The notes under the pieces are model-generated. The model ran no database searches. It saw only the letters and a list, made by a program, of their open reading frames with translations, and had not been told where the DNA came from. DNA of 64,000 nucleotides from contig OX453278.1 of the NCBI GenBank assembly GCA_949710005.1, positions 3,721,001-3,785,000 of the forward strand. The letters run 5' to 3'. This document shows positions 35,833-55,161 of the stretch, in pieces. Made by a program: the position numbers and the translations under genes. The stretch is from Ricordea florida (lineage: Eukaryota; Cnidaria; Anthozoa; Corallimorpharia; Ricordeidae). Each line of letters starts with the position of its first letter. Position 1 is the stretch's first letter.

Positions 35833-38800
35833 ATGCCAAACAAGCATGACGTAGTACAAGGCTTTATCGTTATGGTAGTTCTTGCGGGTTTAAGTGACAG
35901 GATTTATGGTTACTTATCCAGGTAAGCGCTAGTTATACTGTCTCTTATTATATGGCAGGTTTGCGGGAGCGGGCAAAATACGGCCAATCCTAAGTTGATT
36001 GGCTACCTGACCGGCCAAGATTGGAATGTGTTTGGATACCTGAGAAAATTCCACTCCTTTTGCACCTCTTAATTCTCCTACTTAAGAACATTTTTAGAGA
36101 AGCTTTATCTAACAATCGATACTTGTGTTTCATCGCATATCAGATGCATCGAATTTCGCCAAAAATACTCCGCGGCGCTTCTTATTTTCAGCTCCCTTCT
36201 CGGTGTTTGATATGTGATGAAACACTGCATCTCGTGTTTGATACATTACTTGAGATGCCGAGGTCGGGGGTAATAATTCCGCTGAAGCACGTTCTTTTTG
36301 TAACGCTAAATCGCAATTGCTAAATATCAAACGCGAGATACAGTGTTTCATCACATATCAAACACCGAGAAGAGAGCTGAAAATACAACGCGCAGTGAAG
36401 TATTCTTTGCGAAAGTCGAGGTGTTTGATATGTGATGGGACACGTGTATCGAGTGTTTGATATGGCTTCTCAAATGAAATTATCTAGAAGGAGAAATTAG
36501 CAACACAAAAACCAGCCGTGTTTCATCAGATATCCAAACACGTCACGGTGCCTGATTTTCTTTGTCTTTCCCTTCTACATTATTAGTGCGTTTGAGAATT
36601 ACGTTTCCAAACGCAGTGCTATTGTATGATTTATGTCTGGTATACTCAACTGTATTGCTAATAATTTTCGCCTCACCACTGTGTTGTTTATTTTCTTTTT
36701 AGTCGAAACATGTCTCTGCGGGCATATACAAACTCCACTCTGCTGTTACATACACTGTTGCAGGATTACGACAGAAGAATAAGGCCAGGAGTTAAAGGTA
36801 TATGAGATAGGTTTGCTTTATGGGCTTGTTGTGACAGCGTATATTGTGGAAATTTACTGAGATGAGTTTAAAGGCTTGCAGAAATACAAATCTGCAGTGT
36901 TTAGGATTCAATTGAAATGTTACATAGGGTGTATAGCGCTGTAACCATTCCCATATCCACCTACCTGTTTGAGTCTGATATAAGACCAGTAGAGACTGGA
37001 TATCTTGTTTTCTGGGAAGCAGAATAATAGGTTGCATTTTAAAAGAAATTACATCACCAATGGTTTTTTTTTATCTCGGGTGAGATCGATTTTTCACGAC
37101 ATACTGGCTGGAAAATTTGCAAATTAGTTACGAAATAGTTGCCTCCGCCTTGAGCGTCCCAAATTGTAATGACTCTCCTCTGTAGGTTCTCCAGCCGAAG
37201 TTCGAGTTGACATGTATGTTGCAAATATCTGGGCCATGGAGGAAGTGAAGATGGTAAGGCAATTGCAATGTGTTTACATGGCTTTCAGAGATTGTCAGTA
37301 AAACTGACAGAGTTTTCAGATTTTAATTTTATTCAAGTTGATGTCAACAAAGCAAGTATCTCTGGCCGATCACAACAGATGGATGCAGTCAAACGAACCA
37401 ATCAAGAGCAATGACACGAGGCGCTGGAAAAAGCGCACGAGTTAGTGACGATTGGTTTAGTTAACTCTGATTGGTTTGCGAACGTGGCCCTTTAATGTTT
37501 TAGCCAATCACCCACAATCAATGGCGCAAGTATCGAGAATAGAATTAAAAACCTATCCAGGGCAATAACATTGTGTCTCATCGGTAGAAAATAAAACCTT
37601 GAGCTCTGTGCCACTGCTTTAGATTGGGACAGGCGTTTAGCATGCAAAGCGATCTCACCTCGTTGCTAAGTAGTGGCCAAATAAACGATTTTCTTGATGT
37701 GCACTAATATTCTGTGTGTATAGGAGTGTTATTGTAAACTCGCATCTTGATTTGAGAATGAATAATAAGTTATATTTCGTGACGTTTCGTTACGTTAAGT
37801 GATGCTATCCTATCATCTTTTCCCTTTACAGGATTTTACCATTGACATCTACCTCCGTCAGTACTGGAGAGACGAGCGCTTGGCGTACGCTCACTTAACA
37901 ACTGATCCGCTTCTAACGCTAAGCAGCGACATTAACAAACAAATCTGGATCCCGAGTACTTATTTCCTAAGGACTAAAAGGGCGTATTTTCATGATGTCA
38001 CTACTGAAAATTACCTTCTCCAGATACGGCCAAATGGAAGCATCTTTTATAGTATACGGTGCGTCAACATTTCTCTTCTTTATCTGTTGTTTATGATTCA
38101 CCTTTTCTGTGGTTTTTTTTTCTTGTCACGTTGTTTTTCAATCTAACATTGATGGTTTTAAATTAACATTTAACCATCTTTTTACAGGCTCACCATAACT
38201 ACCTCATGTAAGCTAGATTTGCGTCGCTTTCCTCACGATACTCAGATGTGTACGTTGGCACTGGAAAGTTGTAAGTAATTTCTACAGCCTCTAACATCAT
38301 ACTATGTGATGCACGGGTGACTCTGTGATTGACCAGCATCCCATCCAGGGTGGAGTAACAATACTCCCAGGTGCTTCATGTTACTGAACCCAGGATAAGC
38401 TGGGCCTCCTGTGGCACCAGTGGGTCTCCTGTGGCACCTGCGATGTGGTGCACGGGTGACTCTGTGATTCACTAGCATCCATCAAGGGGGAGTTCGGGAT
38501 GGTTGAAGGGGGAGTAACAATACTCCCAGTGATTTATTCTTCTGTAACTGGGATAAGCCGCCGTCTCGTGGGCCTCGTGTCTCGTGTGCTCCTTTACCAA
38601 ACATCGTACGGCTATGTGTTCACGCAAACAAAGTTATTTACTTCACAAAATTAGCCAAGCAAGATGAAATTCATCTTTACAGCGTCTCAGTATTGAATTG
38701 GGAAACTCTTACACTGCAAATGGGCGTGAAAATTCCCAACGTTAATCAACAAGAATGTCAATCAAACAGGTTTCCTTTGTTGTATCAAGAAATGTCCCAC

Positions 38801-53100: not shown

Positions 53101-55161
53101 CTTTGAGGTATGGCCACTCGATCAAGTCAAAAGCTGTTCTAAGATCAACAAATAGGATCCCTTTCTTGTCTGTCAAGTTTGTGTGTTCTATTAAGCCGAA
53201 CATTTACACCACCGGTAGCGGCCTTTCACATAACCAGTTTGATCAGGATTTATAATGCTTGGGAGAACCTTTTCGAGTCTTTTATCGATGGCTTTGGTGA
53301 GGATTTTGTAATAAACATTTAGGTGTAATATAGGCGGCAGGTCCTCTGGCAAAGTTTAGTCTTTGAATCAGTTTTGGGGGATAATTGAGATAATACTTCT
53401 CCTCTGGCTTCAAGACAGCTTTCGAGATTGGAAGGCAAAATCAAAACTTTCCGTCAAATTTTTTATTGATTTCGGGCCACAGGAAGCGTTGAAATTCGGC
53501 ACTAGAAGGCCATCAGTACCGGGAGTTTTTCCGACCTTAAAATCTTTAAGAGCGTAGTAGCATTCATCATGAGAGGTGATTAGACCTTCACAGGATAGCC
53601 TTTCGTTTTTAAAGGAGGTGATGTTGTCTGGCCATGGATTAAAGAAAATGGACAACTTTGAACTTTCCAACGTCGATGTTCTTGGATTTATAAAGAGATT
53701 CATAGCATCACCTAGAATATCGAATTGATCTTCTTTATACGCATTTTCAGCAATTTTTAGTCTTGTTATTGTCTTATTGGTGTAATTTCGTTTTTTTGGT
53801 TTTTGTTTTTTTTTCTTGTATTGCGCTCACCACCTTCGTGCAATCTCGCTTTACTTCTAAGGATCGCACCTTTTGTCCTATCAGTCAAAACTTTTTCTTT
53901 TTAAACGAGATTTTTCTACTTGCAACTCAAGTATGATGTTTTTGTCGTGTGGGTTTTTCATGGCTTGTTCTTGCAACATGTTTACCTTTTTTGCAGAAAA
54001 ATTTCTTTGTAGCTAAGTATTTTTGAGTACTGTACCGTAAATCCACTGACTCATTTCAATTAAATCCCACTTCAAGCCTAAATCAGGTAAATCAACATAC
54101 TTCGCCTTAAAACGTTGAAGGTTTTCTCGTAAAGCTGCGATGTTAGTCTCGTCTTCAAGCAGTGAGGTATCAAAAACCGGGGCCTTTCTGCCGAGCTGAC
54201 GCCTCTAATCGCAGGTGAATGGATATAGCTGAATGATCACTTTCGGAAGCCAATAAAATTTCACACTTTTTTGCATTGCCAAAGCGCAAAACTCTTTTTA
54301 AATAAAAAGGTTTTACGTCTCTGTTGATATCTCTAAAATATTCCAAGCTGTTAACGAATCTCAACTGAAAAAACAGGGTTACAAAATTGTGGAGACGATC
54401 ATTGAACGCTTGGAATTTGCAGCGTACATGTAGCTTGTCATTATAGCTCCTTCGTTAATTCTCTCGTTGTCAAAATGTGTTAATTTTCTATGCGAGTCAA
54501 GACCCTTTTGAGGGCAACATCTTATTGTTCGTTTCCAAGAGAGGATAAAGTAGGTTCGTATAAAACGTTTCTGTTAATGATTAACTTGTTTTGTAAACAG
54601 GTCCTCAGTCCCATTGTTCTTTAATCTTATTTTAGATCTGCAGTACCGTGATGAATAGAGAACTTCCTTACGAACTAAACGATCAAGGAGGGGCCCGACA
54701 AAACTGTTTTATAAAATTACGGAAATTGCGTTTCTTAATTTCACAAGGCCATTAACTTAAATCAAAATCTTAAGGGAGCGCCCAATACAGATAAATCAAA
54801 AGTATATCATCGAAAAACAATCAAAGGAAACTAGAGCGGCTTCAACCAAATTATAAACATGATGTAGTGAACGATATAAGTTCCGTAGGCCTATTGTCGA
54901 ATTTCCGCCTCGAATTCTACCAAAGTGACGTATCTCCTTTGTCCGTCTATTTGCATTTGTTGCTTTATTTTCTTAGTGAAGAAATGTAAAGTAAGAAAGG
55001 TTTTTTTTTTATCAAAATTCACTTCAAAATTAAACTTCTTGTGATTCTTACCTAACGGATGGCTGTCTCGTGGTCTGCTGCACTCCTTTCTTCGTAACAG
55101 AAACATTCATTGCATGTACCATCGCCAAAAGAGCCAAGATCCACAAATTTAAAGACTCCAT
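44178..55161 (-). CDS. Cys-loop ligand-gated anion channel subunit (GABA-A/glycine receptor-like), gene 2
   Basis: Ten coding exons, in transcript order: 55161-55052, 50145-50045, 49464-49397, 49081-48855, 48278-48196, 47241-47095, 45819-45458, 45040-44946, 44634-44550 and 44378-44178. All phases agree; the product is 492 aa. Exon 1 encodes a signal peptide ([17 protein letters not shown]) with an NVS sequon. The extracellular domain has [38 protein letters not shown], a Cys-loop (C176 and C190, FPHD inside) and [13 protein letters not shown]1 is about 262-284, PAR at 291-293 precedes M2 ([13 protein letters not shown]), M3 lies near [16 protein letters not shown], and M4 ([16 protein letters not shown]) is near the C-terminus. 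Compared with gene 1, two extra exons (8, acidic; 9, basic) lengthen the M3-M4 loop. It is oriented tail-to-tail with gene 1. Intron 1 is 4.9 kb and full of repeats. The ligand cannot be deduced. Confidence 0.93.
45848..45992. mobile_element. 145-bp foldback element beside the M1-M3 exon of gene 2
   Basis: Arms pair from GGTAATAGGACTGAGTGGAG / GGTAATAAGACTTCGTGTCG inwards through GTCCAATTCGGTCTG and AAATCGGA, with centre ACCGCGTAGCGG. It starts 29 bp upstream (minus sense) of the acceptor of exon 7. Confidence 0.88.
47573..47873. mobile_element. PIF/Harbinger-like MITE, copy 4 (301 bp)
   Basis: Same TIRs and interior, with perfect TTA duplications (47,570-47,572 and 47,874-47,876). In intron 5 of receptor gene 2. 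Confidence 0.92.
50863..50963. repeat. (TC)n microsatellite, about 100 bp
   Basis: Nearly pure CT dinucleotides in intron 1 of gene 2. Frames through it (poly Ser-Leu or Arg-Glu) are artefacts. Confidence 0.97.
51261..51981. mobile_element. 721-bp DNA transposon with TTAA target duplications (piggyBac/Kolobok-type)
   Basis: Termini are GGTTACGGAACAGGTTCGC and its exact complement, flanked by TTAA at 51,257-51,260 and 51,982-51,985. An internal inverted repeat (TCTTCAAAAGTGTGTCGGG and complement) lies at 51,527-51,686. No transposase is visible; a 94-codon plus frame at 51,695-51,979 is not recognised. TTAA specificity is shared by piggyBac and Kolobok, which cannot be told apart here. Confidence 0.82.
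52925..54400 (-). mobile_element. Degraded L1/Tx1-like LINE fragment in intron 1 of receptor gene 2
   Basis: Minus-strand pieces in order: endonuclease end ([18 protein letters not shown], about 54,270), a linker, pre-RT ([19 protein letters not shown], about 53,560), then [10 protein letters not shown] (about 53,240), [19 protein letters not shown] (about 53,140) and VQQGCPL (about 52,965). The wording of these motifs ([23 protein letters not shown]) is that of the L1/Tx1 group, distinct from the CR1/L2-like elements elsewhere in the window. Several frameshifts and stops; the YADD region is missing. The strand is the same as the host gene. Confidence 0.75.

Follow-up and report, generated by a model that had tools for sequence, protein, structure and literature searches.

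How did two Cys-loop receptor genes come to stand tail to tail in the genome of the corallimorpharian Ricordea florida, and what might the channels that they encode respond to? The locus lies in a 64,000-nucleotide stretch of contig OX453278.1 (positions 3,721,001 to 3,785,000; referred to as the window, with positions counted from its first letter), in which gene A on the forward strand (35833–40701) faces gene B on the reverse strand (55161–44178). We consider it probable, with moderate confidence, that A and B are old, intact sister paralogs left tail to tail by an old local inverted duplication, and that they encode chloride-channel subunits with a shared ligand pocket. The analysis gave directly the predicted gene models, the pore motif, the residues of the pocket and the sisterhood of the pair relative to seven reference receptors. 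The shared rebuilt pocket, not the arrangement of the genes, appears to be the part worth following; a linked pair of oppositely facing genes is in itself ordinary.

Two intact genes for predicted anion-channel subunits

Both genes were rebuilt exon by exon. Gene A consists of 8 exons (89, 95, 68, 227, 83, 147, 374 and 255 nt) encoding 445 amino acids and gene B of 10 exons (110, 101, 68, 227, 83, 147, 362, 92, 85 and 201 nt) encoding 491; each reads without interruption from its ATG to its stop codon, with GT..AG borders at all seven introns of A and all nine of B. The preliminary description had reported two complete Cys-loop genes facing each other about 3.5 kb apart, and the rebuilt models bear this out, with a stop-to-stop gap of 3,476 nt (40702–44177). 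As gene predictions, both are confirmed to be intact. Each model starts with a signal-peptide exon (35833–35921 in A, 55052–55161 in B). Scanning for an ATG followed by a hydrophobic leader and a phase-2 donor returned exon 1 of B as the sole candidate between 50147 and 62000; for A, two candidates emerged between 30000 and 36690, namely exon 1 and a slightly more hydrophobic alternative with a donor that we judge weaker than that of the chosen exon. Exons 2 and 3 follow at 36703–36797 and 37186–37253 in A and at 50045–50145 and 49397–49464 in B. The least certain parts of the models are the exons of the loop between membrane segments M3 and M4, namely exon 8 of A (40447–40701, which also holds M4 and the stop codon) and exons 8 and 9 of B (44946–45037 and 44550–44634); exon 10 of B (44178–44378) contributes M4 and the stop codon. 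Searching the window by tblastn with both proteins (E up to 1) disclosed no third Cys-loop gene, the only two matches away from the exons having E values of 0.23 and 0.35.

Both proteins contain the ligand-binding domain PF02931 and the membrane domain PF02932 above the curated Pfam cut-offs. The best PDB match of A is a receptor beta subunit for gamma-aminobutyric acid (GABA; 9she, 3.6e-103) and that of B is glycine receptor alpha 1 (7mlu, 3.7e-95). Exon 5 of each gene (38188–38270 in A, 48196–48278 in B) carries the Cys-loop pair with 13 residues between the cysteines (C167/C181 in A, C176/C190 in B), and the W-X-P of loop A and the Trp of loop D are present in both. Exon 7 (39459–39832 in A, 45458–45819 in B) holds the end of loop C, the segments M1–M3 and the PARV pore motif. 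To define the pocket and pore, 27 landmark positions were compared between the two proteins and a set of bilaterian references, comprising an RDL-like chain (9she), GABRB1, GABRB3, GLRA1, GABRA1, one GluCl and the nicotinic receptor (nAChR) alpha 7, six of which are anion channels. In M2, both A and B have Pro at position −2′ and Ala at −1′, residues that are tied to chloride selectivity (PMC13335744). The domains, the structural matches and the pore motif uphold the initial assignment to anion-channel receptors: A and B are Cys-loop subunits of the anion-selective GABA-A/GlyR superfamily, and their pore is predicted to be anionic.

A shared, rebuilt ligand pocket

At five of the 27 landmarks, A and B agree with each other and depart from all six anion-channel references. 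Two of these positions lie in exon 4, which carries loops D, A and E (37832–38058 in A, 48855–49081 in B): the loop A Asp of all six references is Ser (S126 in A, S135 in B), and the loop E Arg, likewise present in all six, is Gln (Q148, Q157). In loop C, which is split between exon 6 (38826–38972 in A, 47095–47241 in B) and exon 7, the Thr of the six references is replaced by Ile near the end of exon 6 (I236, I245), and the aromatic residue at the loop C2 position, encoded by exon 7, is replaced by His (H239, H248). The fifth change falls in exon 5, where the FPxD motif of the Cys-loop has His as its third residue in both proteins (H176, H185) and Met or Leu in the references. The Arg of loop D is kept (R93 in A, R102 in B).

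Published work indicates how much such changes may matter. Most anion-selective subunits have the loop A motif W-X-P-D-T-F-F-X-N, the Arg residues of loops D and E serve agonist recognition, and both GlyR and GABA-A receptors are severely impaired once the loop C Thr gives way to a residue without a hydroxyl group (PMC4006026). In the sea anemone Nematostella, mutation of the loop C Lys of nvGluCl-2 almost completely abolishes the response to glutamate; among seven Nematostella receptors tested, none responded to GABA or glycine and three responded to glutamate, and most subunits of this animal are described as lacking both lysines of the glutamate site, so that other ligands are expected for them (PMC13335744).

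Measured against these precedents, neither subunit looks like a receptor for GABA, glycine, glutamate or an amine. Where the GABA-A signature calls for Thr in loop C and an aromatic residue at loop C2, both proteins have Ile and His. A second pair of cysteines in loop C is a hallmark of glycine receptors, and the GluCl reference carries the pair as well; loop C of A and B contains no Cys. At the position of the nvGluCl loop C Lys, corresponding to Thr202 of the human beta subunit, both have Ile; a Lys is found three residues earlier in A (K233), where B has Ile. In loop G, where nvGluCl channels have another Lys, the pair shows Ala/Ser in the column of the GluCl Arg, a column that may not be exactly that of the nvGluCl Lys. 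Finally, the amine-gated chloride channels HisCl1, ACC-1, MOD-1 and LGC-55 lack the loop D Arg (PMC4006026), which both A and B possess. The retained Arg suggests a ligand with a carboxylate, and the combined pattern leads us to infer an orphan receptor whose ligand bears this group but is none of GABA, glycine and glutamate. Such an orphan receptor is the kind to be expected, because none of the seven Nematostella receptors tested responded to GABA or glycine and most subunits there lack the lysines. Whether A and B constitute an undescribed ligand class, with the four pocket replacements in place before the two genes split and the loop D Arg maintained, is a tentative proposal that we hold to be possible but short of likely; sensitivity to pH or metal ions through the His residues would also be conceivable.

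Kinship and age of the pair

The two proteins are 58.6% identical over their shared core, which supports the paralogy stated in the preliminary description. Among the seven references, A comes closest to 9she (49.0%) and B to GLRA1 (47.6%). In a maximum-likelihood tree of nine rows and 318 of 371 columns, A and B were grouped with support of 99/99, and several residues common to both occur in none of the seven references, supporting their status as sisters relative to these receptors. A tree that separated the genes into distant, separately ancient subfamilies had been named as the outcome that would speak against a duplication; the tree obtained joins them, though only bilaterian references were present to separate them.

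The duplication had been described as old, and this is borne out at the nucleotide level. Of the 67 four-fold degenerate sites whose codons agree in their first two bases, 44 are different in A and B, and the NG86 method gave a nonsynonymous divergence (dN) of 0.34 and returned no synonymous value (dS), suggesting that synonymous sites are near saturation. The proteins appear constrained, since dN is 0.34 while 44 of 67 four-fold sites differ. Protein identity is lowest in exon 1 (0.21) and exon 8 (0.36) and highest in exon 4 (0.64), and same-sense blastn matches between the two loci (E up to 0.01) are confined to exons, extending at most 6 nt past them, and to a repeat element present at both. 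Searches for relatives in public DNA were little informative because the collections are viral and prokaryotic: gene A gave 3 pattern matches in a collection of viral contigs, and among genome contigs gene B gave 38 and an alignment (A1) 110, with no relative confirmed in any of the three.

Exon structure and the case for local duplication

The correspondence in exon structure that first drew attention to the pair was reproduced in the rebuilt models. Exons 3–6 measure 68, 227, 83 and 147 nt in both genes, and the six introns that precede M1 have the phases 2, 1, 0, 2, 1 and 1 in A and B alike, introns 2–6 falling in identical alignment columns (77, 100, 175, 203 and 252). The seventh intron, after M3, is of phase 0 in both and falls in different columns of a poorly aligned loop. 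Part of this structure is shared much more widely. Exon 5 of mouse Glra1 is also 83 bp long, and its duplication leads to the premature stop F159X (PMC3484359); Phe159 is the loop B aromatic residue of glycine receptor alpha 1 (PMC4006026). In A and B, exon 5 ends within the codon of the corresponding loop B Tyr (Y188 and Y197, respectively), from which the exon boundary would appear to be the same in A, B and mouse Glra1. Because a vertebrate receptor has this exon too, it predates the pair, and an equal exon structure is expected in any two genes of the superfamily that have kept their introns. Identical exon lengths were therefore rejected as proof of local duplication. The only usable exon size of a related gene came from PMC3484359, with PMC1975676, PMC3757052 and PMC1934366 yielding none. 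Of the inverted local duplication originally proposed, the sisterhood of the genes relative to the seven references and its old age stand, and the argument from equal phases and exon lengths is weakened by Glra1 exon 5; the case now rests on the adjacency of the genes, the tree and the shared residues absent from the references.

A model for the origin and function of the pair

The steps from these results to a mechanism are inferred, as regards local duplication, ligand class, assembly and physiology alike. An ancestral gene would have undergone an old local duplication with inversion, giving rise to the tail-to-tail genes A and B. Each product would be one subunit of a pentameric chloride channel opened by its ligand, with the ligand site formed between neighbouring subunits and the loop D Arg holding the carboxylate. 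The replacements of Asp by Ser in loop A, Arg by Gln in loop E, Thr by Ile in loop C and the aromatic residue by His would most simply have occurred before A and B split, and the two receptors would then most likely answer one shared carboxylate-bearing ligand by opening an anion pore. That two genes with nearly saturated synonymous sites have kept the same rebuilt pocket would point to one conserved ligand. The pair may accordingly serve as a matched set for ligand finding in a family in which most Nematostella subunits lack the lysines of the glutamate site and are expected to respond to ligands still to be found (PMC13335744).

With respect to assembly, each subunit still has residues belonging to either face of the site. 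In M1, A and B have a Trp where GABRA1 has Gln; a Trp in M1 has been linked to homopentamers (PMC13335744), and in our reading it is this position that is meant. In loop D, both have Arg where GABRB1 and GABRB3 have Gln, and because both keep this Arg, A and B lack the division into principal and complementary subunits that characterizes the vertebrate alpha and beta chains. Each is therefore predicted probably to form homopentamers, and mixed channels of A and B are possible without being required.

A number of observations weigh against this model. Conserved exon structure, as discussed above, is no evidence for local duplication, and beyond the exons and the repeat there is no DNA homology left to mark a duplicated block. 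The tree resolves the A+B branch alone, its other inner branches lying below the program's threshold, and two of its rows, nAChR and GluCl, are long. Since the references are non-cnidarian, either gene may be more closely related to receptors encoded at other places in the genome. The pocket contrast is drawn from six anion-channel references, the loop A Asp may matter little, as work cited in PMC4006026 found this Asp not strictly needed and a hydrogen-bond network that is redundant, and PMC13335744 itself warns that ligands are hard to predict from the sequences of these receptors. As to the pore and membrane segments, Pro at −2′ is not shared by every anion channel, because GABRB1 and GABRB3 carry Ala there, and a hydropathy scan (cut-off 1.5) marked M1, M3 and M4 in A and M3 alone in B, whose membrane segments are defined by the Pfam and PDB alignments.

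Alternative explanations

The several residues of A and B that occur in none of the seven references, the 99/99 grouping and the absence of a third copy within 64 kb make it rather unlikely, in our view, that the pair represents members of a larger and older cluster, whose other members now lie elsewhere or have been lost, and that A and B became neighbours through retention and a later inversion instead of one local inverted duplication. Such a history would nevertheless agree with an exon structure that is at least partly ancestral, as the 83-bp exon 5 of mouse Glra1 indicates, with introns and flanks that share no DNA save the repeat element, with synonymous sites near saturation, and with the abundance of these receptors in Nematostella, which has 39, 26 of them in a cnidarian radiation (PMC13335744).

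Two further explanations take the arrangement itself to be functional. Physical linkage could reflect an obligate partnership in one heteropentamer, with linkage serving co-expression as in the alpha/beta clusters of vertebrate GABA-A genes, whose head-to-head members have been proposed to be co-regulated (PMC1934366). The preliminary description had suggested that both subunits could enter one heteropentamer, and we found no positive support for it: the pockets do not divide the work between them, Arg occupying in both the loop D position that is Gln in the GABA-A beta references; each subunit carries the M1 Trp associated with homopentamers in PMC13335744; and genes placed tail to tail share no promoter. 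An obligate partnership thus seems improbable. Still less probable, to a degree that makes it barely credible, is that the layout yields overlapping antisense 3′ ends which regulate the pair. Convergent genes only 3,476 nt apart invite the idea, and use of more distant polyadenylation-like signals, at 43423 or 43453 in the case of A and at 41194 to 42855 in that of B, might produce an overlap; however, the first signals encountered are AATAAA at 41092 after A and ATTAAA at 43074 and AATAAA at 43018 after B, leaving about 1.9 kb between them, so that the earlier suggestion of antisense overlap gains no positive support. The gap contains two AATAAA motifs on the forward and six on the reverse strand, base composition alone predicting about 2.2 on each; these numbers settle nothing as to an overlap of the 3′ ends. 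The possibility of a gene within the gap was rejected, as its three open reading frames of at least 110 codons had no Pfam match at 0.01.

Comparison with known systems

Among the closest known systems to the putative old sister pair are nvpLGIC-1 to -7, members of the cnidarian radiation of putative GABA-A receptors described in PMC13335744. All seven have the M1 Trp, and six of the seven have Ala at −1′ and Pro at −2′, as in A and B; four are without a known ligand, and the three gated by glutamate are reported to have the loop D Arg (PMC13335744). Compared with the published description of these three, A and B differ in having no Lys at the loop C position concerned.

GLRA1 (7mlu) resembles B as its best PDB match and in 14 identical residues at the start of M2, and its mouse ortholog shares the 83-nt exon 5 with both genes (PMC3484359). 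It differs from B in overall sequence (47.6% identity), in the loop C cysteines that B lacks, and in the Asp of loop A, Arg of loop E and Thr and Phe of loop C, all of which are replaced in B. Receptors of the GABA beta/RDL type are similarly related to A: 9she is its best PDB match and agrees with it at the six M2 landmarks, and GABRB1 and GABRB3 share the loop B sequence ESYGY. The identity of this type to A is at most 49.0%, its loop C Thr and Tyr are Ile and His in A, and GABRB1 and GABRB3 have Gln at the loop D position where A has Arg. As for gene order, vertebrate GABA-A clusters likewise bring together paralogous subunit genes that face opposite ways; there, alpha and beta genes stand head to head, the chromosome 5 cluster spanning 500–700 kb (PMC1934366), whereas A and B stand tail to tail within 20 kb and both encode the loop D Arg.

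Repeats and other features of the window

An element of about 280–310 nt is present in four copies (18262–18543, 35415–35720, 41535–41845 and 47572–47874), the others being 86–89% like the third, with the inverted ends AGGGACGGACCATTAGAAAAGTGAT. One of the last three immediately precedes gene A, the next falls in the stop-to-stop gap as its palindromic repeat, and the last is inside gene B. The presence of the element at both ends and in the middle of the locus made it a candidate cause of the inversion, which was rejected because its copies are 86–89% alike while the genes are near synonymous saturation. The end of the element had no match among viral contigs, a collection that is little informative in this respect.

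Further repeats occur within the genes. A 106-nt tandem repeat is found at 2075–2592 and, 37 kb away, at 39882–40393 in the last intron of A. The repeat at 38304–38560 in intron 5 of A recurs inverted at 41210–41416, 2.7 kb downstream and beyond the end of the gene, with 81–92% likeness. In gene B, an inverted repeat (45830–46010) with 89-nt arms, 74% complementary and 3 nt apart, lies 10 nt upstream of exon 7. The 4.9-kb first intron of B contains broken frames on the reverse strand at about 52929–53826; the frame 53191–53355 has a weak reverse-transcriptase match (4.3e-4, below the Pfam cut-off), and the frames 53413–53826 and 52929–53126 have none.

Scans of the whole window with Rfam (gathering threshold) and for tRNA genes returned nothing. 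Open frames resembling a long interspersed nuclear element extend over 4454–7071 on the forward strand, with a reverse-transcriptase match of 1.1e-31 at 5804–6472. A single 275-codon frame on the same strand (16962–17786) matches nearly the whole profile of the TENA/THI-4 family (6.4e-13), with no PDB match at 0.01 and no NCBIfam match, and is possibly an intronless or acquired gene. At the edge of the window, 2–529 on the reverse strand holds an exon of a RecQ-like DNA helicase.

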